Assembly (NCBI GenBank): GCA_001899765.1
Contig: MKWM01000011.1
Location: forward strand, 159,422-223,421
Direction: 5' to 3'
Origin: Thiobacillus sp. 63-78
GTDB taxonomy: Bacteria > Pseudomonadota > Gammaproteobacteria > Burkholderiales > Thiobacillaceae
Length of the DNA: 64,000 nucleotides
How positions within the stretch are numbered: position 1 is the stretch's first letter; every line of letters begins with the position of its first letter. Below the pieces are notes generated by a model. That model did no database searches and was not told where the DNA came from. It saw only the letters and a program-made list of their open reading frames with translations. A program made the translations under genes and the position numbers. Shown here in pieces: positions 20,000 to 31,252 of the stretch.

Positions 20000-20062
20000 T
20001 CGTGTCCAGTCGATAACCGACGACCTATGCGAAAATCCCCCTGATACAAACAAGGGGGCGTT

Positions 20063-23000
20063 TTGGCACCACAGCCGGAACAACAAGCGAGGGGAAATAT
20101 CGATGTGCTGCTGGAGGCGGCAGGCTGGCATGTCTGCGATGCCTCCGCCGCCAACATCCACGCCGCGCGCGGCGTCGCTATCCGTGAATTTCCGCTGCCC
20201 GGCTACGGCTTCGCCGACTACCTCTTATATGTGGACGGCAAAGCGGCCGGGGTGATCGAAGCCAAGAAGGAAGGCGTCACCCTCACCGGCGTCGAAACCC
20301 AGTCCGATAAATACACCAAGGGCCTGCCGCCGGGCCTGCCGCGCTGGCACAACCCGCTGCCGTTCGCCTACCAGACTACCGGAATCGAAACCCGTTTCAC
20401 CAACGGCCTTGACCCTACGCCGCGCTCGCGGCCGGTGTTTGCTTTCCACAAGCCCGAACTTCTCGCCAACTGGCTGGGCTATGCGCCCGCCGTGCAGCCG
20501 GGGCAGGGTAACGCCGGAGAAACCGCCGCCACCTTCCTCGCCAAGCTGCAATCCATGCCGCCGCTCAAGGAAGAAGGCCTGTGGCCCGCCCAGATCACCG
20601 CGATCCGCAACCTGGAAAAATCCCTCAAGGAAAACCGCCCCCGCGCCCTGATCCAGATGGCCACCGGATCGGGCAAGACCTTCACCTCGATTTCCTTCAT
20701 CTACCGGCTGATCAAGTTCGCCGGGGCGCGGCGCATCCTGTTCCTGGTCGACCGCGGCAACCTCGCCGACCAGACCCTCAAGGAATTCCAGCAATACGTC
20801 TCGCCCTACAACAACTTCAAGTTCAGCGAGGAATACATCGTCCAGCGCCTGCAGGGCAACCAGATCGACACCACCGCCCGCGTCTGCATCTGCACCCTCC
20901 AGCGCATGTACTCCATGCTCAAGGGCAAAGAGCTGCCGGTCGACCTGGAAGAAGAATCCGTGGATCAATTGGGCAAGCTCCTCAAAGAACCCGAGCCCAT
21001 CGAATACAACCCCAGCATCCCCATCGAAACCTTCGACATCATCGTCACCGACGAAGCCCACCGCTCCATCTACAACCTGTGGGCGCAGGTGCTGGAATAC
21101 TTCGACGCCTACCTCGTCGGCCTTACCGCCACGCCCGGCAAGCAGACCTTCGGCTTCTTCCACCAGAACCTGGTGATGGAATACAACCACGAGATGGCGG
21201 TGGCCGACGGCGTCAACGTCAACTACGACGTCTACCGCATCAAGACCGCCATCACCGAGGCCGGCTCCAGGGTCGAAGCCGGCTACTACGTCGAAAAACA
21301 GGAACGCGACACCCGCAAAACCCGCTGGGAAGAACTCGACGACGACTTCGCCTATGACCCCAACCAGCTCGACCGCGACGTCGTCACCCCCGACCAGATC
21401 CGCACCATCGTACGCACCTTCCGCGACAAACTCTTCAGCGAAATCTTCCCCGGCCGCACCGAAGTGCCCAAGACTCTCATCTTCGCCAAGGACGACAACC
21501 ACGCCGAAAACATCGTCGAAATCCTGCGCGAGGAATTCGGCAAGGGCAACGAATTCGCCCAGAAGATCACCTACCGCAGCTACTTACCAGGCAAGGGGGG
21601 CGCCACGCCCAAGGAACTCATCTCGGCCTTCCGCAACAGCTACCACCCGCGCGTCGCCGTCACCGTCGACATGATCGCCACCGGCACCGACATCAAACCG
21701 GTCGAAATCGTCTTCTTCATGCGCGCCGTCAAATCGCGCGGCTTCTTCGAGCAGATGAAAGGCCGCGGCGTGCGCGTCATCAAGCCCGACGACCTCAAGG
21801 CCGTCACCCCCGACGCCAAGGCCAAGGACCATTTCGTCATCATCGACGCCGTCGGCGTGTGCGAGCAGGACAAAACCGACGCCCGCCCCATGGAGAAAAA
21901 GCCCAGCGTCAGCTTCGAGCGCCTGCTGCAAGCCGTCGCCTTCGGCAACACCGAAGACGACGTCATCACCAGCATCGCCGGCCGCCTGGCCCGGATGGAA
22001 CACCGCATCAGCGCCGAAGACGACGCCAGAATCCGCATTGCCAGCGGCGGCCTCGGCCTGAAAGACCTCGCCCACCAGTTGGTAGCTGCACTTTCGCCCG
22101 ATCCCGTAGAAGCGGCGTCCCGCCGCTTACCAATGGAAACCGCTGACAATTACGCGGGATACGGCTTCCTAGACCCCAATGCTCCTATCGAGATGCAGCG
22201 CGCCAATCTTCCACACTGGCGGCAGGATGAGGCCAGCTATTTCGTCACCTTCCGTCTGGCGGATTCGTTACCCAAACAACGTCTCATCGCTTGGCGGGAG
22301 GCACGTGCCGACTGGCTGACGCGCAACCCACACCCGTGGTCAGCCGCGCAGGAAACCGACTATACAGAGCGCTTTTCCGCCCGCATCGAGTCCTGGCTGG
22401 ACGCCGGTGTGGGAAGCTGCGCTCTGGCAAACCCTCAGGCACGCGAGCTGATGGAGACGGCATTGAGGCATTTCGACGGAGAACGCTACCGGCTCGGAAA
22501 ATATGTGGTGGCCGCCAACCATGTCCACGCGATCGTCACGCCGCTGCCGGGGCACGAACTCTCTGAAATCCTGCATAGCTGGAAAAGCTACACGGCCAAA
22601 CAGATATTGCAGTTAGAAGCGGCGTCCGGCCGCTTGTCGGAAGGCACGATCTCAATCTGGCAAAAGGAATCCTACGACCGTATCGTACGCTCGCCCGAAG
22701 AACTGTTTCGCATTGAACAATATATACAGCGGCATTCCGAATACGAATTGAGCGCGGCGGACAAGCGGCGAGACGCCGCTTCCACGGCGATGCAGCAGGC
22801 GCGGATACTCGCCGCCAAACCCCTATGCGACCCCGCCCTGCGCCAGCTCATCCTCGACATCAAAGCCAAAAACGAACTCACCATCGACCACGTCAGCCAG
22901 GATCAGGTCATCGAAGCCGGCTTCAGCCAGGCCGCCCTCGACCGCGCCAAAGGCCTCGTCCAATCCTTCGAGCGATTCATCGCCGACCACAAAGACGAAA

Positions 23001-23524
23001 TCACCGCCCTGCAAATCCTCTACGCCAAGCCCTACAAACAGCGCCTCACCTTCGATGCCGTGAAAGAACTCGCCGACGCCATCGAAAAGCCGCCCTACCT
23101 GTGGAACGAATCCCAGCTCTGGCAAGCCTACGCCGCGCTGGAAGCCAGCAAGGTCAAAGGCGCCAGCGGCAAACGCATCCTCACCGATCTGGTCTCGCTG
23201 GTCCGCTTTGCCATCCATCAGGACAACGAACTCGTGCCGTTCCCCGAGCGCGTCAACGCCAACTTCAAGGTATGGGTGGAAGCGGCGTCCCGCCGCTTGG
23301 CCGAAACAAAGCGGCAAGATGCCGCTTCTACGGGCTTCACTACTGAACAGATGAAATGGCTCGAAATGATCCGCGACCACATTGCCGCCAACCTCGGCAT
23401 CGAACCGGACGACTTCGAATACGCCCCCTTCGCCCAGGAAGGCGGCCTCGGCAAGGTCTACCAGCTCTTCGGCGACGAACTCAACACCCTCATCGAGCAA
23501 CTGAACGAAACCCTGGCCGCATGA
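20063..23524 (+). CDS. hsdR: Type I restriction enzyme R subunit with in-frame RAYT and REP insertions
   Basis: 1153 residues, starting at TTG 20063 with AGGGGG upstream. The N-terminal nuclease has the PD-ExK signature (GYGFADYLL ... VIEAKK). The translocase follows with Walker A MATGSGKTFTS, TDEAHRS and RGVRVIK. The C-terminal helical part from about residue 910 (LCDPALRQLILDIKAKNEL) normally binds the methylase core. Between ALSPDP and that part, residues about 682-907 are a REP-flanked tyrosine transposase read in the same frame. A REP doublet adds about 19 residues near 1073-1090. Without the inserts the length is near that of normal EcoEI-type HsdR. Whether the enzyme still cuts is unknown. 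Confidence 0.9.
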   Translation: MAPQPEQQARGNIDVLLEAAGWHVCDASAANIHAARGVAIREFPLPGYGFADYLLYVDGKAAGVIEAKKEGVTLTGVETQSDKYTKGLPPGLPRWHNPLPFAYQTTGIETRFTNGLDPTPRSRPVFAFHKPELLANWLGYAPAVQPGQGNAGETAATFLAKLQSMPPLKEEGLWPAQITAIRNLEKSLKENRPRALIQMATGSGKTFTSISFIYRLIKFAGARRILFLVDRGNLADQTLKEFQQYVSPYNNFKFSEEYIVQRLQGNQIDTTARVCICTLQRMYSMLKGKELPVDLEEESVDQLGKLLKEPEPIEYNPSIPIETFDIIVTDEAHRSIYNLWAQVLEYFDAYLVGLTATPGKQTFGFFHQNLVMEYNHEMAVADGVNVNYDVYRIKTAITEAGSRVEAGYYVEKQERDTRKTRWEELDDDFAYDPNQLDRDVVTPDQIRTIVRTFRDKLFSEIFPGRTEVPKTLIFAKDDNHAENIVEILREEFGKGNEFAQKITYRSYLPGKGGATPKELISAFRNSYHPRVAVTVDMIATGTDIKPVEIVFFMRAVKSRGFFEQMKGRGVRVIKPDDLKAVTPDAKAKDHFVIIDAVGVCEQDKTDARPMEKKPSVSFERLLQAVAFGNTEDDVITSIAGRLARMEHRISAEDDARIRIASGGLGLKDLAHQLVAALSPDPVEAASRRLPMETADNYAGYGFLDPNAPIEMQRANLPHWRQDEASYFVTFRLADSLPKQRLIAWREARADWLTRNPHPWSAAQETDYTERFSARIESWLDAGVGSCALANPQARELMETALRHFDGERYRLGKYVVAANHVHAIVTPLPGHELSEILHSWKSYTAKQILQLEAASGRLSEGTISIWQKESYDRIVRSPEELFRIEQYIQRHSEYELSAADKRRDAASTAMQQARILAAKPLCDPALRQLILDIKAKNELTIDHVSQDQVIEAGFSQAALDRAKGLVQSFERFIADHKDEITALQILYAKPYKQRLTFDAVKELADAIEKPPYLWNESQLWQAYAALEASKVKGASGKRILTDLVSLVRFAIHQDNELVPFPERVNANFKVWVEAASRRLAETKRQDAASTGFTTEQMKWLEMIRDHIAANLGIEPDDFEYAPFAQEGGLGKVYQLFGDELNTLIEQLNETLAA
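22106..22785 (+). mobile_element. RAYT transposase gene between inverted REPs, inside hsdR
   Basis: The left REP (AAGCGGCG TCC CGCCGCTT, 22110-22128) and the right REP (AAGCGGCG AGA CGCCGCTT, 22763-22781) bound a gene whose own start would be ATG 22133. The product matches the Y1/transposase-17 type REP-associated tyrosine transposase: YGFLDPNAPIEMQRANLPHW, YFVTFRLADSLP, the metal-binding HVH in NHVHAIVTPLPG, LHSWKSYTAK and the probable catalytic Tyr in WQKESYDRIVR. The usual C-terminal YIxxNP segment is altered to YIQRHSEYEL before the right REP. The frame is continuous with hsdR on both sides. Confidence 0.88.
22617..22635. repeat. Solo REP inside the RAYT gene
   Basis: AAGCGGC GTCCG GCCGCTT, a variant of the left REP with one changed base, lies within the transposase reading frame and is translated EAASGRL, just before the WQKESYDR motif. 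It has no right partner. Confidence 0.75.
23280..23327. repeat. REP doublet in frame near the hsdR 3' end
   Basis: Left palindrome AAGCGGCGTCCCGCCGCTT (23280-23298) and right palindrome AAGCGGCAAGATGCCGCTT (23309-23327) with a 10-bp spacer. It is read as EAASRRL-AET-KRQDAAST and interrupts the HsdR segment between VNANFKVWV and GFTTEQMKWLEMIRD. Confidence 0.88.
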
Positions 23525-23579
23525 CGAGCGAAATAAAGACTAAAATAATGACCAGATTAATGGTTTGAAGGAGCCTGCG

Positions 23580-23825
23580 ATGGAACTGCTCTACACCAAC
23601 GCCTCGGTCAGCATCAGCGAACTGAAGAAGAATCCCACCGCCGTCATCGACGAGGCGGACGGCTTCCCCGTCGCCGTGCTCAACCACAACAAACCCGCCG
23701 CCTACCTGGTGCCCGCCGCCGCCTTCGAAGCCATGATGGAAAAGCTCGACGACATCGAACTCGCCAAGCTGGTGAAGGAACGCGAGCACGAGCCCACCGT
23801 CAAGGTCGACCCGAATGACCTATAG
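23580..23825 (+). CDS. Phd/YefM-type antitoxin
   Basis: 81 residues from ATG 23580, preceded by AAGGAG. It has the Phd/RelB-like N-terminus SVSISELKKNPTAVIDEADG, AVLNHNKPAAYLVPAAAFEAMM and an acidic C-terminus (EREHEPTVKVDPNDL) that would wrap the toxin. It overlaps relE by 11 bases. The pair lies between hsdR and hsdS of the type I system. Confidence 0.9.
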   Translation: MELLYTNASVSISELKKNPTAVIDEADGFPVAVLNHNKPAAYLVPAAAFEAMMEKLDDIELAKLVKEREHEPTVKVDPNDL

Positions 23826-24102
23826 CCTCGAATTCCGGGAGAGCGCCTGGAAGGAGTGGCAGAAACTCGACCGCCCTCTGCGCGAGCAATTCAAGGCCAA
23901 GCTGCTGGAGCGGCTGGACAACCCCCGCGTCGAATCCGCCCGCCTGTCCGGCATGCCCGACTGCTACAAGATCAAGCTGCGCGCCGCCGGCTACCGGCTG
24001 GTGTACCAGGTCTTCGACGAGCGGGTGGTGGTCGTCGTCGTGGCCGTGGGCAAGCGGGAGGACAGCGCGGTGTATCGCAAGGCCAAGGGGCGGACGAAGT
24101 GA
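23815..24102 (+). CDS. relE: RelE/StbE-family toxin
   Basis: 95 residues with the RelE fold: YSLEFRESAWKEWQKLDRPLREQFKAKL, the basic active face GMPDCYKIKLRAAGYRLVYQV, and C-terminal VVVVAVGKREDSAVYRKA. The catalytic Arg/Lys set of ribosome-dependent mRNases is present. The start overlaps the antitoxin, and the stop TGA (24100-24102) overlaps the GTG start of hsdS, so toxin and specificity subunit translation are coupled. Confidence 0.92.
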   Translation: MTYSLEFRESAWKEWQKLDRPLREQFKAKLLERLDNPRVESARLSGMPDCYKIKLRAAGYRLVYQVFDERVVVVVVAVGKREDSAVYRKAKGRTK

Positions 24103-25538
24103 GTCGTGACCGCATTTTGAAGGCTGAAGAAGCACGAGCCGATTACGCGAAAGACACCCTTGTCCGGACTGAACATGGCGAGTGGCAGGTCTTAGCCATC
24201 GGAGAAGTGGCTGACGTGAATCCGCGCGTAGACAAAGCCGTGATACCAGACGACTTGCCGGTTTCGTTCGTTCCTATGCCAGCAGTCGGCGCTGGAGATG
24301 GCTCAATTCGCGTTGAGGAAACCTGCCCGGCGGGCGCGGTAAAAAAGGGCTTTACCGCCTTCCGCGAGGGCGACGTCCTGTTTGCCAAGATCACGCCGTG
24401 TATGGAAAACGGAAAGATGGCCGTAGTCCCTAAGCTGGCTAATGGTTATGGCTTCGGTTCCACTGAATTCCATGTCCTCCGGCCTAAACCGGGCATGGAC
24501 GCCAAATACATTTATTACTACGTTTCGAGCCAAGCGTTTCGTAGCGAGGCTGAGCGGTACATGACCGGGGCTGTGGGACAGAAGCGTGTGTCCACGACCT
24601 ACTTGAAACAAAGCACGATTCCCGTCGCCCCCCTCGACCAACAAAAACGCATCGTTGCGGAGATCGAAAAACAATTCTCCCGCCTCGACGAAGCCGTCGC
24701 CAACCTCAAGCGCGTCAAGGCCAACCTCAAGCGCTACAAAGCCGCCGTCCTCAAAGCCGCCGTCGAAGGCCGCCTCGTCGAAACCGAAGCCGAACTCGCC
24801 CGCCGCGAAGGCCGCAGCTACGAGACCGGCGAGCAACTCCTGCAACGCATCCTCGAAATCCGCCGCAGTCAGTGGTTTATCTCTGGTAGGGGGCAAGGCA
24901 AGGGCAAATACAAGGAACCCGCCGAGCCCAACACCACCGACCTGCCCGAATTGCCGGAGGGGTGGGTGTGGGCCAATGTTGATCAGCTATCAGAAGTGGG
25001 CACCGGGGCGACACCAAAACGTGATCAGGCCAGGTACTACGGCGGGGAGATTCCTTGGGTGACCAGCGCGGTTGTGAACGATGCCTTTGTCGATCATGCG
25101 GATGAGTTTGTGACAAGTGACGCATTAGCTGAAACCAACCTTACGCTTTATCCACCTGGCACCTTGTTGGTCGCGATGTACGGCGAGGGAAAGACCCGCG
25201 GCAAGTGTTCCGAGTTGCGAATCGCAGCAACAACTAATCAAGCGCTTGCGGCTCTGCAAGCCGACGAGGACGTTCGGAAATACCTAAAACAGTTCCTCGA
25301 ATTCAACTATGAGCAAATGCGCAAAGTCGCGTCGGGTGGTGTCCAGCCAAACCTGAACCTCTCGCTAGTTCGCGCTGTTTGTGTGCCGTTGCCACCGATG
25401 GCCGAACAAAACCGCATCGTCGCCGAAGTTGACCGCCGCCTCACCCTCCTGCACGAAACCGAGGCCCAGGTGGACGCCAACCTCCAGCGCGCCGGGCGCC
25501 TGCGCCAGTCCATTTTGCAGCGCGCTTTCAGCCCGTGA
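24099..25538 (+). CDS. hsdS: Type I restriction-modification specificity subunit HsdS
   Basis: 479 residues from GTG 24099, which overlaps the relE stop. Two target-recognition domains (about residues 25-180 and 285-435) each end in the conserved helix start: LDQQKRIVAEIEKQFSRLDEAV and MAEQNRIVAEVDRRLTLLHETE. These long helices space the two half sites. The DNA target cannot be read from the sequence. The usual adjacency with hsdM is broken; hsdM lies 4 kb downstream. Its last codons overlap the next gene (GTGA). Confidence 0.93.
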   Translation: MSRDRILKAEEARADYAKDTLVRTEHGEWQVLAIGEVADVNPRVDKAVIPDDLPVSFVPMPAVGAGDGSIRVEETCPAGAVKKGFTAFREGDVLFAKITPCMENGKMAVVPKLANGYGFGSTEFHVLRPKPGMDAKYIYYYVSSQAFRSEAERYMTGAVGQKRVSTTYLKQSTIPVAPLDQQKRIVAEIEKQFSRLDEAVANLKRVKANLKRYKAAVLKAAVEGRLVETEAELARREGRSYETGEQLLQRILEIRRSQWFISGRGQGKGKYKEPAEPNTTDLPELPEGWVWANVDQLSEVGTGATPKRDQARYYGGEIPWVTSAVVNDAFVDHADEFVTSDALAETNLTLYPPGTLLVAMYGEGKTRGKCSELRIAATTNQALAALQADEDVRKYLKQFLEFNYEQMRKVASGGVQPNLNLSLVRAVCVPLPPMAEQNRIVAEVDRRLTLLHETEAQVDANLQRAGRLRQSILQRAFSP

Positions 25539-27145: not shown

Positions 27146-27846
27146 ATCCCAACGACATCAATGTGCTGATGCTGGAATCGGTCGCCCAGCGGTTGGGCGA
27201 CGATCTGCTGGGCGAACTGGTGTTCATCGGTGGCGCGGTCGCGGGCTTGCTAATTACCGACCCGGCCATGCCGGCGATCCGTCCCACGGAGGATGTGGAC
27301 CTGCTGGCCCAGGCGCTGACGCTGGCGGACTATCATCGTGTCGAGAAAACCCTGGCTGAACGGGGATTCGAGCACGACATGAGCCCGGATGCGCCAATCT
27401 GTCGTTGGCGGGTGGGCGGCGTGGCGGTGGATGTGATGCCGGCGCTGGAAGGCGTTCTCGGTTTTTCCAACCCTTGGTACCCGTTGGCGCTCGATACTGC
27501 CGAGCGCCTGGCTTTGCCAAGCGGCACGGTGATCCGCCTGGTGGCGGCGCCGGTTTTTCTGGCCACCAAACTGGAGGCTTTTTCCGGACGTGGCAGGGGC
27601 GATTATTTGTTCAGCCATGATCTGGGCGATTTTCTGGCGGTAATCGATGGGCGGGACAGCCTGGTCGACGAATGCCGGTCGAGCAATGCCGAGCTGCGGG
27701 CGTATCTGCGTGAGCGAGTTACAGGTTTGCTTGCCACATCGGCCTTTATCGATGCGCTGCCAGGACATTTGCCGGGGGACGCGGCCAGCCAGGAGCGCCT
27801 GCCGGACCTTGAAGACAAACTGCGTGCGCTGGCACGTTTGGAGTAA
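27142..27846 (+). CDS. Nucleotidyltransferase-fold protein (AbiEii/DUF1814-like)
   Basis: 234 residues from ATG 27142. The nucleotidyltransferase signature is present: FIGGAVAGLLI (GG motif) and TEDVDLLAQ (Asp pair), followed by a third acidic position in VDVMPALEGVLGF. The helical C-terminal half is typical of DUF1814/AbiEii proteins. AbiEii toxins transfer nucleotides to tRNA or other targets. With the preceding winged-helix gene it could be a toxin of an abortive-infection pair inside the restriction island. Confidence 0.78.
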   Translation: MNPNDINVLMLESVAQRLGDDLLGELVFIGGAVAGLLITDPAMPAIRPTEDVDLLAQALTLADYHRVEKTLAERGFEHDMSPDAPICRWRVGGVAVDVMPALEGVLGFSNPWYPLALDTAERLALPSGTVIRLVAAPVFLATKLEAFSGRGRGDYLFSHDLGDFLAVIDGRDSLVDECRSSNAELRAYLRERVTGLLATSAFIDALPGHLPGDAASQERLPDLEDKLRALARLE

Positions 27847-27930
27847 AGCTTGAACACCAATACCATCGTCCAGAAACTCTGGAACTACTGCAACGTCCTG
27901 CGCGACGACGGCATGAGCTACGGCGACTAC

Positions 27931-27958
27931 CCTTCGACTCCGCTCAGGGCAGGCTCCA
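27931..27958. repeat. Short CTTCGACTCCGCTCAGG-type repeat in the broken hsdM
   Basis: Bases 27931-27958 (CCTTCGACTCCGCTCAGGGC and onward) replace GTCGAGCAG of the intact gene. On the minus strand it reads ACPERSRRV, the hallmark of a repeat seen in proteins of many bacteria. It is related to the piece in intact hsdM near 30975. Confidence 0.75.
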
Positions 27959-28168
27959 CTCACCTATCTGCTGTTCCTGAAGATGGCCGACGAGCGTAGC
28001 CGGCCGCCCTATAACCAAGCCAGCCCGGTGCTCACCGGCTATGACTGGCCCAGTCTTGTGAAGAAGGACGGCGACGAGCTGTTCGACCACTACCGCCACA
28101 CGCTGGAGAAACTGGGCAAGCAGAAAGGCTTGCTCGGCCTGATCTTCACCAAGTCGCAGAACAAGTTT

Positions 28169-28418: not shown

Positions 28419-29657
28419 ATGCCTCCCCAACCCCTGATTACCCGTTTTATCCGCCCACGGCTGATCGAGGCGCTTGCCGATACGCCTGTGGTCCTGGTGC
28501 ATGGTCCCCGCCAGTGCGGCAAGTCGACACTGGCGCAAACGGTGAAGGGGTACGCTTACATCACGTTCGATGATGCGGTGCAACTTGCGGCGGCCAAGGC
28601 CGACCCTGTGGGCTTTGTGGCGGACCTTCCGGACAAGGTGATTCTGGACGAAGTGCAGCGAGTGCCGGAGTTGTTCGCGTCGTTGAAGGCGGCGGTGGAT
28701 CGCGACCGGCGCCCTGGGCGTTTCATCCTGACCGGCTCGGCCAATGTGCTGCTGGCGCCGAAGTTGTCGGACTCGCTGGCGGGGCGGATGGAGCTGCTGC
28801 GCCTGTATCCGCTGGCACAGTGTGAGCTGGCAGGGGTCAAGAGTGGTTTCATCGACGCCTTGTTCTCGCGCGCTTTCAAGGCGAAAGCGCATGGGCGCCT
28901 TGGTGCGGAGCTTGCCGAACGTATTGTCGCCGGGGGCTATCCTGCTGCATTGGCACGCGCCGCCGGGCGTCGGCGGCGCGACTGGTATCGCGCCTATCTC
29001 GAAACGCTGGTGCAGCGCGATGTGCGCGAACTGGCGCGCATCAGTTCGCTGGACGCCTTGCCGCGGCTGCTGCAGATGGCCGCGGGGCAGACGGCGCGGC
29101 TGCTGAATGTCAGCGAGCTGGCTGCACCGTTTCAATTGAGCCGTCCGACCATTCGTGACTATGTGACGCTGCTGGAACGCATTTTTCTGATCGAGTTGCT
29201 GCCGCCCTGGCACAGCAATCGGCTGAGCCGTCTGGTGAAGACGCCGAAGCTGCATCTGGGTGACACCGGCCTGGCTTCGAGCCTGCTCGGCGTGGATGCA
29301 GGCGCATTGGCCAGGGATCGCCCACTGCTCGGACAACTGCTGGAAACCTTTGTGTTGCAGGAGTTGCGCCGCCAGGCCAGCTGGCACGATGACGCCATCG
29401 GCTTTCACCACTTCCGCGACAAGGACGGCTACGAGGTGGACATCGTGCTGGAACGCGAAGGGCGCGAACTCGCCGGCGTGGAGGTGAAGGCGGCGGCGAC
29501 GGTCACAGAATCGGATTTCAGGGGCTTGCGCAAACTCAAGGATGCAAGCGGCGTGCGCTTTGCGAGCGGCGTGGTGCTCTATGACGGCGAGAGCACGGTG
29601 CGCTTCGCCGAGGATTTGTTCGCGGTGCCGATCAAGGCACTTTGGAGTTTGAAATGA
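28419..29657 (+). CDS. AAA-family ATPase with DUF4143 domain
   Basis: 412 residues. The N-terminal AAA_14 ATPase has Walker A HGPRQCGKSTLAQ and Walker B VILDEVQRVPELF, sensor LTGSANVLL. The C-terminal DUF4143 part contains LARISSLDALPRLLQMAAGQ and a PD-ExK-like set in DGYEVDIVLEREG ... AGVEVKA, suggesting a nuclease-like fold. The role of the family is poorly known. It overlaps the hsdM start (ATGA) and lies between the broken and intact hsdM copies, so it looks like a module inserted into the restriction operon. Confidence 0.88.
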   Translation: MPPQPLITRFIRPRLIEALADTPVVLVHGPRQCGKSTLAQTVKGYAYITFDDAVQLAAAKADPVGFVADLPDKVILDEVQRVPELFASLKAAVDRDRRPGRFILTGSANVLLAPKLSDSLAGRMELLRLYPLAQCELAGVKSGFIDALFSRAFKAKAHGRLGAELAERIVAGGYPAALARAAGRRRRDWYRAYLETLVQRDVRELARISSLDALPRLLQMAAGQTARLLNVSELAAPFQLSRPTIRDYVTLLERIFLIELLPPWHSNRLSRLVKTPKLHLGDTGLASSLLGVDAGALARDRPLLGQLLETFVLQELRRQASWHDDAIGFHHFRDKDGYEVDIVLEREGRELAGVEVKAAATVTESDFRGLRKLKDASGVRFASGVVLYDGESTVRFAEDLFAVPIKALWSLK

Positions 29658-31252
29658 ACACAGCCACCATCGTCCAGAAACTCTGGAACTACTGCAATGT
29701 CCTGCGCGACGACGGCATGAGCTACGGCGACTACGTCGAGCAGCTCACCTATCTGCTGTTCCTGAAGATGGCCGACGAGCGCAGCCGGCCGCCCTATAAT
29801 CAGGCGAGCCCGGTGCCTGCCGGCTATGACTGGGCGAGCCTTACGAAGAAGGACGGCGACGAGCTGTTCGACCACTACCGCCACACGCTGGAGGAACTGG
29901 GCAAGCAGAAAGGCTTGCTCGGGCTGATCTTCACCAAGTCGCAGAACAAGTTTCAGGACCCGGCCAAGCTGCGGCGGCTGATCGCGGACCTGATCGACAA
30001 GGAAACCTGGGTGTCGATGAGCGCCGACGTGAAGGGCGACGCCTACGAGGGCCTGCTGGAGAAGAACGCGCAGGACACCAAGTCCGGCGCGGGCCAGTAC
30101 TTCACGCCGCGCCCGCTGATCCAGGCGATTGTCGATGCCATGGCGCCGCGGCCCGGCGAGACCATCTCAGACCCGGCCTGCGGCACCGGCGGCTTTCTGC
30201 TGGCGGCACACGACTATGTGGTGAAGCACTATCCCAACATGACGTCGGCGGAGAAGAAGAAACTGCGCGGGGAAAGCTTCAAGGGCTGGGAGCTGGTGCA
30301 GGCCACCGCCCGGCTGTGTGCGATGAACATGCTGCTGCACGGCATCGGCAGCGTAGAAGCGGCGTCCCGCCGCTTGGAGGCGTCAGATAAGCGGCAAGAT
30401 GCCGCTTCCACCGTACCCATCGTGGTGGGCGATTCGCTGGCCGCCGATCCCGGCGAGCGCTTCGACGCGGTGCTGACCAATCCGCCCTTCGGCAAGAAGA
30501 GCAGCACGACGATTGTTGGAGAAGAGGGCAAGGTCAGCAAGGAACGCGACACCGTCGAGCGCGACGACTTCTGGGCCACCACCGCGAACAAGCAGCTCAA
30601 CTTTGTCCAGCACGTGAAGACGCTGCTGAAGCAGAACGGCCGCGCCGCCCTGGTGCTGCCGGACAACGTGCTGTTCGAAGGCGGGGCGGGCGAGACGATC
30701 CGCAGGAAGTTACTGCACGACTGCGACGTCCACACCCTGCTGCGCCTACCCACCGGCCTGTTCTACGCCCAGGGCGTGAAGGCGAACGTGCTGTTCTTCG
30801 ACAAGAAGCCCGCCGCCGAAACCCCGTGGACCAGGAAGCTGTGGATCTACGACCTGCGCACCAATATGCACTTCACGCTCAAGACCAACCCCTTGAAGCG
30901 CGAAGACCTGGATGAGTTCGTGCAGTGCTACAACCCGGCGAACCGGCATGATCGGAAGGCGACGTGGAGTGCAGACGCGGAAAGCGCTTCGACAGGCTCA
31001 GCGCGAACGGGGCTTGAGGGCCGCTGGCGTGCTTATGACTACGATGAACTGATCAGCCGCGACAAGGCGAGTCTGGATATTTTCTGGCTGAAGGATGAAT
31101 CGCTGTCCGACTCCGACAATCTGCCTGCACCGGAGGTGATTGCGCAGGAAATCGTCGACGACCTGGAGACGGCGTTGGAACAGTTCCGGGAGATTCTGGC
31201 CGATATGAGGGCCGAAGAGGCTGATGCCCAGATTGAATGTGTATCCAGATAA
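29654..31252 (+). CDS. hsdM: Type I DNA methyltransferase subunit HsdM
   Basis: 532 residues from ATG 29654. N-terminal HsdM_N helices come first, then the N6-adenine methylase: SAM-binding DPACGTGGFLLAAHDY and catalytic NPPFG. Protective adenine methylation occurs with HsdS. Two repeat pieces are in frame: a REP doublet giving VEAASRRLEASDKRQDAAST just before VPIVVGDSLAADPGE, and ESASTGSARTGLEG near residue 445. Both lie on likely surface loops, since the motifs around them are intact. A partial copy lies 1.4 kb upstream. Confidence 0.93.
   Translation: MNTATIVQKLWNYCNVLRDDGMSYGDYVEQLTYLLFLKMADERSRPPYNQASPVPAGYDWASLTKKDGDELFDHYRHTLEELGKQKGLLGLIFTKSQNKFQDPAKLRRLIADLIDKETWVSMSADVKGDAYEGLLEKNAQDTKSGAGQYFTPRPLIQAIVDAMAPRPGETISDPACGTGGFLLAAHDYVVKHYPNMTSAEKKKLRGESFKGWELVQATARLCAMNMLLHGIGSVEAASRRLEASDKRQDAASTVPIVVGDSLAADPGERFDAVLTNPPFGKKSSTTIVGEEGKVSKERDTVERDDFWATTANKQLNFVQHVKTLLKQNGRAALVLPDNVLFEGGAGETIRRKLLHDCDVHTLLRLPTGLFYAQGVKANVLFFDKKPAAETPWTRKLWIYDLRTNMHFTLKTNPLKREDLDEFVQCYNPANRHDRKATWSADAESASTGSARTGLEGRWRAYDYDELISRDKASLDIFWLKDESLSDSDNLPAPEVIAQEIVDDLETALEQFREILADMRAEEADAQIECVSR
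30357..30407. repeat. REP doublet in frame in hsdM
   Basis: Left palindrome (30357-30375) and right palindrome (30389-30407) are base-identical to those of the hsdR doublet at 23280-23327; the spacer is 13 bp. It is read EAASRRL-EASD-KRQDAAST between the SAM-binding and the catalytic motifs. Confidence 0.9.
30975..31012. repeat. TTCGACAGGCTCAG-type repeat in frame in hsdM
   Basis: GCTTCGACAGGCTCAGCGCG with a GAACGGGG tail adds ESASTGSARTG to HsdM. The motif is a widespread bacterial interspersed repeat (from memory); a diverged piece sits in the broken hsdM copy. Confidence 0.7.

Follow-up and report, generated by a model that had tools for sequence, protein, structure and literature searches.

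How can a complete transposase gene be read through inside the frame of a restriction enzyme, and in what way does it live there? The question is raised by hsdR in a stretch of 64,000 nucleotides from Thiobacillus sp. 63-78 (contig MKWM01000011.1), the whole of which is called the window below. The first-pass annotation described a complete tyrosine transposase of the REP-associated family (RAYT), bounded by inverted REPs, that is read within this gene without a stop or a shift and lies between the translocase and the methylase-binding helices. These points are borne out by the measurements given below. At a probability of about three in four, the REP-flanked RAYT (REPtron) is read here as a non-splicing, intein-like guest domain of HsdR.

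The hsdR frame and the element inside it

The gene hsdR is a single open frame of 1153 codons on the forward strand (20063-23524) with a TTG start. Its product has the parts of a type I HsdR, namely nuclease, motor and C-terminal domain, and hsdM and hsdS are found nearby. In one chain, the Pfam matches follow each other as HSDR_N, ResIII, Helicase_C, Y1_Tnp and EcoEI_R_C (residues 965-1151), and the HsdR motifs EAKKEG (residue 66), ATGSGKT (200), DEAH (330) and QMKGRGVR (564) are intact. The element, taken from GTAG to CCAC, is exactly 22106-22785, i.e., residues 682-908 (682-907 had been estimated), and is placed in the linker between the HsdR motor and EcoEI_R_C. It opens with a left REP with a GTAG foot (22106-22128, forward strand), translated as VEAASRR, and closes with an inverted right REP with a GTGG foot (22763-22785, reverse strand), translated as KRRDAAST; both are 8-bp hairpins (z -4.5 and -4.3). 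The RAYT guest domain between them (22133-22757, forward strand) is a Y1/HUH transposase without a stop codon. Its HUH motif NHVH (22517-22528, residues 819-822), a degenerate REP in frame (22613-22635) and the codon of the catalytic tyrosine (22721-22723, residue 887 by alignment) follow each other on the same strand. The N, H and H of the HUH motif are invariant in 40 of 40 rows of alignment A3. The insert stretch contains no stop in the reading frame and 4-7 in each of the five other frames, and 4 of 5000 base shuffles of it stay open.

The Y1_Tnp match covers residues 806-890 (E 4e-5, 24.1 bits vs. a cut-off of 23). By sequence alone, no solved relative of the insert was found. Searching the PDB with its predicted fold gave 30 matches at E<=0.001, all of them Y1 transposases, including the RAYT 4er8. 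The AlphaFold model of the RAYT alone (40 rows) has a pLDDT of 83.5 and a pTM of 0.75. The model of the whole chain is weak (pLDDT 66, pTM 0.35) and gives no usable domain placement; in it, ten-residue blocks from 721 to 890 have a mean pLDDT of 59-90, and values below 50 are seen at 681-695 and 893-906. With the HUH motif, the tyrosine, the Y1 fold and inverted flanking REPs with GT[AG]G feet, the insert has the characters of a RAYT.

The same fusion of HsdR and RAYT is found in five genomes, the window's included, with pairwise identities of 51-94% for HsdR and 54-97% for RAYT. The other carriers are the isolate Sulfuriferula multivorans TTN (L042, G419) and three MAGs, assigned to Sulfurimicrobium (L043), to Pseudomonadota of the window's family (G303, L023/L044) and to Verrucomicrobiota (L045). 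A sequencing or assembly error that joined the frames, named in the first-pass annotation as a refuting case, is rejected, since the fusion recurs at this linker in the genome of an independent isolate and in three MAGs. In insert-free HsdRs (L024, L031, L034, L168, L169, L172, L173, L176, L178), this linker is often filled by other repeat-like peptides, APAQAGAQ being one of them, which may be translated DNA repeats. None of the other inserts seen at this position is as large as the RAYT element. Since insert-free HsdRs hold other in-frame peptides at this position, the HsdR linker looks like a general landing place for in-frame inserts.

REPs without a RAYT are found in the same system. An inverted REP pair (REPIN, no strand assigned) lies in frame in hsdR at 23276-23331, and another such REPIN lies in frame at 30353-30411 in hsdM (29642-31252, forward strand; Pfam N6_Mtase and HsdM_N). 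The hsdS gene (23856-25538, forward strand, putative start) has two Methylase_S stretches by Pfam. The pattern GTRGAAGCGGCN5GCCGCTT was scanned with at most one mismatch in the five fusion genomes and three insert-free relatives. It gave 7 copies in the window's genome (G000), 7 in G419, 4 in G420, 8 in G303 and 7 in G418, and none in the three insert-free relatives. By position and reading, all 33 copies are in hsdR, hsdM and one hsdS (in G303, HsdS by eye). The genome-wide REP population that is usual for RAYTs, though it does not define them, is absent in the window's genome, where the 7 copies are confined to hsdR and hsdM. A second copy in that genome as the source of the RAYT was rejected, as no other RAYT match was found there and REPs of this type occur in these two genes only.

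A REP pair occupies one and the same hsdM site in the window, S. multivorans, G303 and the Verrucomicrobiota MAG; G420 has none outside hsdR, and the pairing is thus seen in four of the five genomes. In the 13 other genomes of the family with this site covered, none of them with an HsdR guest (hsdR being partial or unseen in some), the hsdM REPIN is absent throughout: 11 read LLHGIGSQ[ED]FEPI, one is slightly different, and L214 has a short unrelated insert. HsdM of the window and that of L045 are 65% identical, while their REPs differ at few positions. This near-constancy of the REPs would fit continued recognition by the RAYT. The rule that REPs are always read in one frame was rejected: it is true for the five RAYT elements and the window's own REPINs but fails in L045 for the REPs of hsdM and of the N-terminal part of hsdR.

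Two other features accompany the operon. The gap between hsdR and hsdS (window 23565-24102) contains two small ORFs, by eye a putative antitoxin-toxin pair of the RelB/RelE type. A shortened copy of the hsdM 5' end lies at 27837-28168 (88% and 93% identical to 29641-29734 and 29744-29953) and is separated from the full hsdM by an AAA_14/DUF4143 gene (28419-29657).

Embedded RAYTs in other host proteins

Three RAYTs (A1), used as queries in a scan, gave 165 matching stretches, of which 99 were confirmed and 80 kept. Hosts were assigned by comparing the parts left and right of the RAYT with ten representative frames, all Pfam-annotated loci. By this measure, 51 of the 80 RAYTs are in frames of host proteins of eight types: MetH (21), IspG (14), HsdR (4), Eco57I-type methylase (4), B12/radical-SAM DUF4080 protein (4), uracil-DNA glycosylase (UDG; 2), DinG-like helicase (1) and MmeI-like protein (1). 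The proportion is not a general rate, because the query came from embedded RAYTs, and "free" for the other 29 means that no such host was seen, because ten representative frames only were compared. Among the 51, L071 and L096 are cut by contig ends, and the left side of L048 consists of repeat-coded residues only. The frame of L068 is broken inside the guest: in this MmeI-like gene, on a low-coverage contig, the RAYT is split over two frames by a sequencing error or by decay. On either side of the cyanobacterial methylase guests L047, L048 and L049 lie arrays of VTQASSLSEKNTQDG-like repeats, also in frame.

A profile of 40 RAYTs, run at E<=1e-15 against 299 genomes of the window's phylum, gave 19 matches in 17 genomes. 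Only two of these matches are in frames longer than 400 aa, that of the window and L212 (G568), the latter with 1243 aa and by eye a DUF1156-like methylase. Within the window's order, RAYTs of six further genomes lie in a uracil-DNA glycosylase frame, the host being assigned by Pfam in L008 and by eye in L009-L012 and L014.

Further hosts come from stretches of the genomes that hold these loci: CarB (2), LeuRS (3), AlaRS (3), PriA, CinA (with its guest at the C-terminal end and not between host domains), a second HsdR type, an Eco57I-type protein and a DUF1156 protein. BLAST gave the AlaRS guests; in one of the three, Y1_Tnp is recognized by Pfam. Two RAYTs are present in one MetH (L062, L064) and in one IspG (L066). 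LeuRS and AlaRS are essential enzymes. The sole LeuRS found in G411, G413 and G417 carries a guest, as does the sole AlaRS found in G410, G416 and G418; in the other genomes searched, these enzymes, where whole, are in shorter frames without a guest. G413 (locus L077) is Luteolibacter pohnpeiensis KCTC 22041 and has a guest in IspG too. In G411, a 12.6-Mb assembly, RAYTs are in frame in IspG (twice), CarB, LeuRS, HsdR and an Eco57I-type protein (L066, L195, L196, L197, L206). The IspG frame of L143 (G507) is 1213 aa long, with about 320 extra residues ahead of the usual IspG start. A frame of 1974 aa around a RAYT in G420 was discarded as a fusion, since that RAYT is a free ORF of 230 aa.

The catalytic residues of these guests are kept. 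In the first alignment, the HUH motif and the tyrosine are present in 56 of 57 embedded rows (the motif table left out L068, L090, L100 and minus-strand matches), and L083 lacks the tyrosine. A second set without L083 and L071 has both in 72 of 72 embedded rows, 69 with NHxH and the three AlaRS guests with DHxH. The flanks of the L083 guest, in IspG, are simple-repeat peptides (SQPSTS, TTAAT), as if decaying.

Histories of guest and host

A first tree, of 84 RAYTs, has one group each for guests of HsdR (support 95), the radical-SAM protein (100), UDG (96), IspG (93) and MetH (49), and two groups for the Eco57I guests. A tree of 94 rows, which left out L071, L083 and the free rows L085, L091, L105, L112 and L118, separates the guests of MetH site 1 (92) from those of site 2 (100) even within one protein. 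CarB (99), AlaRS (96), UDG (95), HsdR (83) and IspG (78) guests are again grouped; those of LeuRS, DUF1156 and Eco57I are not single groups. Host and site together require 20 changes for 18 labels, the minimum being 17 and the shuffled mean 63. This clustering is partly the kinship of the hosts.

The single guest group per host or site, seen for most hosts, is what plain inheritance would leave: one ancient insertion for each host site, many losses and no homing, with the RAYT kept for some host benefit. We regard this as rather unlikely, though it is the strongest of the alternatives. Each loss would have to restore a working linker, and identities are mismatched: the window and L023 share 80% of HsdR and 62% of RAYT, the window and L045 52% and 54%. 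The HsdR host tree has 38 rows, five of them with the RAYT, whose presence needs three changes, forced by the starred branches; a single clade is rejected by the AU test, both for the four rows from Pseudomonadota (p 8e-56) and when all five are taken together (p 1e-4). In the IspG tree (39 rows after ten duplicate or partial ones were dropped; 23 with a guest, mostly best-scoring loci), presence needs nine changes, of which at least six are forced, and the host and guest identities have a correlation of 0.13. In the family of G409, a single match runs through IspG and guest in at least 15 of the 141 genomes with a match (145 searched), among the matches listed.

Synonymous divergence was compared in 16 pairs, ten of which were taken into a significance test. 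The guest is less diverged than the host in six of these ten; the pairs were mostly picked as close on the RAYT tree, a choice that favours young guests. The six are window/L042 (p 2e-5), window/L043 (0.002) and L042/L043 (9e-7), which involve the same three sequences and are not independent, as well as L088/L093 (p 3e-14, pS 0.07 vs. 0.40), L078/L084 (6e-6) and L047/L049 (7e-4). This is at odds with plain inheritance, whereas the remaining pairs agree with it: the guest is the more diverged partner in window/L044 (p 1e-9) and L076/L080 (0.03), divergence is not different in L103/L106 and L065/L083, and a lower guest dS is found in none of the six further pairs. The dN/dS of the guest is 0.04-0.31 in those 14 of the 16 pairs for which it could be computed. 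The discordance in both directions says that the histories of guest and host differ, and it fits homing as well as gene conversion by ordinary recombination.

On the reading of the RAYT as an intein-like guest, we infer homing at moderate strength. The element would, with moderate confidence, be mobile between those copies of a gene that have it and those that lack it, much as an intein is but without ever splicing out, and its RAYT would, with similar confidence, still bind and cut its GTAG REPs in single-stranded DNA. The same REPs without the RAYT are inserted in frame in hsdM, and in hsdS of one genome, within the same system. As proposed here, the survivors would be in-frame copies in linkers only, because other insertions break the host protein. 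Expression would come from the host protein, which would be damaged in turn if the guest were lost imprecisely. Mobility of the RAYT is testable, since relatives have the same gene both with and without the guest, and some of the alleles with it are in cultured isolates.

Translation of the guest and its place among known elements

Translation of the fusion is strongly indicated: the cell would, with high confidence, make a single HsdR-RAYT-HsdR chain with an independently folding RAYT. The first-pass annotation left the choice between such a fusion and an internal start that gives free transposase; the fusion is now favoured. An internal start at ATG 22133, with a RAYT product besides or instead of the fusion, is improbable. 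This ATG is kept in the window's copy, and in the 50 codons that precede the conserved LPHW, an ATG is present in 12 of 49 embedded copies, compared with 24 of 29 free ones (p 5.7e-7; L068 and L096 removed from the free group). However, a REP hairpin precedes ATG 22133, with no Shine-Dalgarno sequence seen before it, and L044 (G303) and L045 have no ATG there. Shine-Dalgarno-like sequences accompany such ATGs in 0 of 49 embedded copies vs. 5 of 29 free ones, and GTG and TTG, common upstream of LPHW, have none in embedded copies. At the right end, the embedded frames continue into the host without a stop, so that a product of the internal start would still carry the HsdR C-terminus. With no stop before the host and mostly no start codon, embedded RAYTs are probably made only as part of their hosts.

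An intron, an intein or translational bypass that takes the insert out before it has any effect might explain why the essential hosts LeuRS and AlaRS tolerate a guest. Such removal is very improbable, as no Rfam match at E<=1 was obtained in 20000-23700, no intein domain is among the Pfam hits of the fusion and the scanned relatives, and the frame is open through both junctions, which would be needless if the insert were removed. The dN/dS against S. multivorans (L042) is 0.126 for HsdR-N, 0.146 for RAYT and 0.113 for HsdR-C; host and guest are both under purifying selection, not drift. The other refuting case of the first-pass annotation, a dead hsdR that drifts as a pseudogene, here with a frame open by chance, has a negligible probability despite the REP insertions piled up in this operon, because the HsdR parts that flank the insert are under purifying selection, the motifs are intact, the M and S genes are present, few shuffles stay open, and the isolate genome has the same open frame. 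At the level of sequence, then, a RAYT is read through with its catalytic residues present, both its REPs are read in frame as linkers, and purifying selection acts on host and guest. The strongest claim, that of a non-splicing, intein-like transposase, rests on comparative evidence.

Inteins are in-frame guests that are specific to a host gene and site, patchy in distribution and present in essential proteins. The embedded RAYTs are alike in all these respects; unlike inteins, they show no intein domain among the Pfam hits and would stay in the protein, and their nuclease is of the Y1/HUH type. IS200/IS605 elements are free genes with their own ends. The Y1 transposase fold is common to both, whereas the present element carries REPs in place of such ends and is present once in the window's genome. 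Prior work reportedly includes Bertels et al. 2017.

By its features, the insert resembles RAYT subclass 2.4 (RAYT group 4): the Y1/HUH fold, the NHVH, WQ and YI motifs and inverted GT[AG]G REPs are shared, and a REP in frame between HUH and tyrosine, frequent in the subclass, is present in the window's RAYT. Known members are free genes, whereas the present RAYT is one domain within a different protein. In the parts of Quentin et al. 2018 (PMC6006769) that concern it, subclass 2.4 is described as free genes, with 194 in the table, read as the median number of residues; a few proteins that were longer than expected are stated there to have been discarded as gene fusions or annotation errors. 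Parts of PMC8049555 also belong to the prior work. In the relevant parts of Di Nocera et al. 2013 (PMC3733652), REPs inside ORFs are described, many of them in replication and repair genes, and Rickettsia elements are mentioned; over half of the inserts encode 20-30 residues, the largest named there encode 43-82, and no transposase appears among them in those parts. The hsdR and hsdM REPINs, as palindromic in-frame inserts in protein genes, are intragenic REPs in this sense. Intragenic REPs and the Rickettsia palindromic elements are alike in being palindromes in frame in proteins, including repair enzymes and tRNA synthetases, possibly in linkers; unlike them, the host protein here contains the mobilising enzyme itself. 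In-frame REPs are already known, and what appears to be new is a whole RAYT embedded in host proteins. Searches of a literature with few subscription papers and no bioRxiv preprints gave no account of a complete RAYT lying within a host protein. To this extent the earlier claim that a transposase embedded in a restriction enzyme is undescribed stands; its scope was too narrow, because embedding is a recurring way of life with many other hosts.

A wider proposal is put forward tentatively, at somewhat less than even odds. The embedded RAYTs may form a class of mobile elements that are permanent, translated, non-splicing domains without their own start and stop, locked to one host protein and site. 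They would home into empty alleles within and between phyla, be held by valued or essential enzymes, and be able to raise a private, operon-confined family of in-frame REPs, of which this restriction-modification locus would be an example.

RAYTs have so far been studied as free, "domesticated" genes. Relatives of this RAYT lie in many bacterial proteins, essential ones among them, which suggests that mobile DNA can live within proteins in a manner that has been little noticed. If many RAYTs live in host proteins, gene finders and surveys that drop long hits have missed this lifestyle of a transposase. If true, it would be a non-splicing counterpart of inteins and would account for some of the unusual linkers found in enzymes of bacteria.
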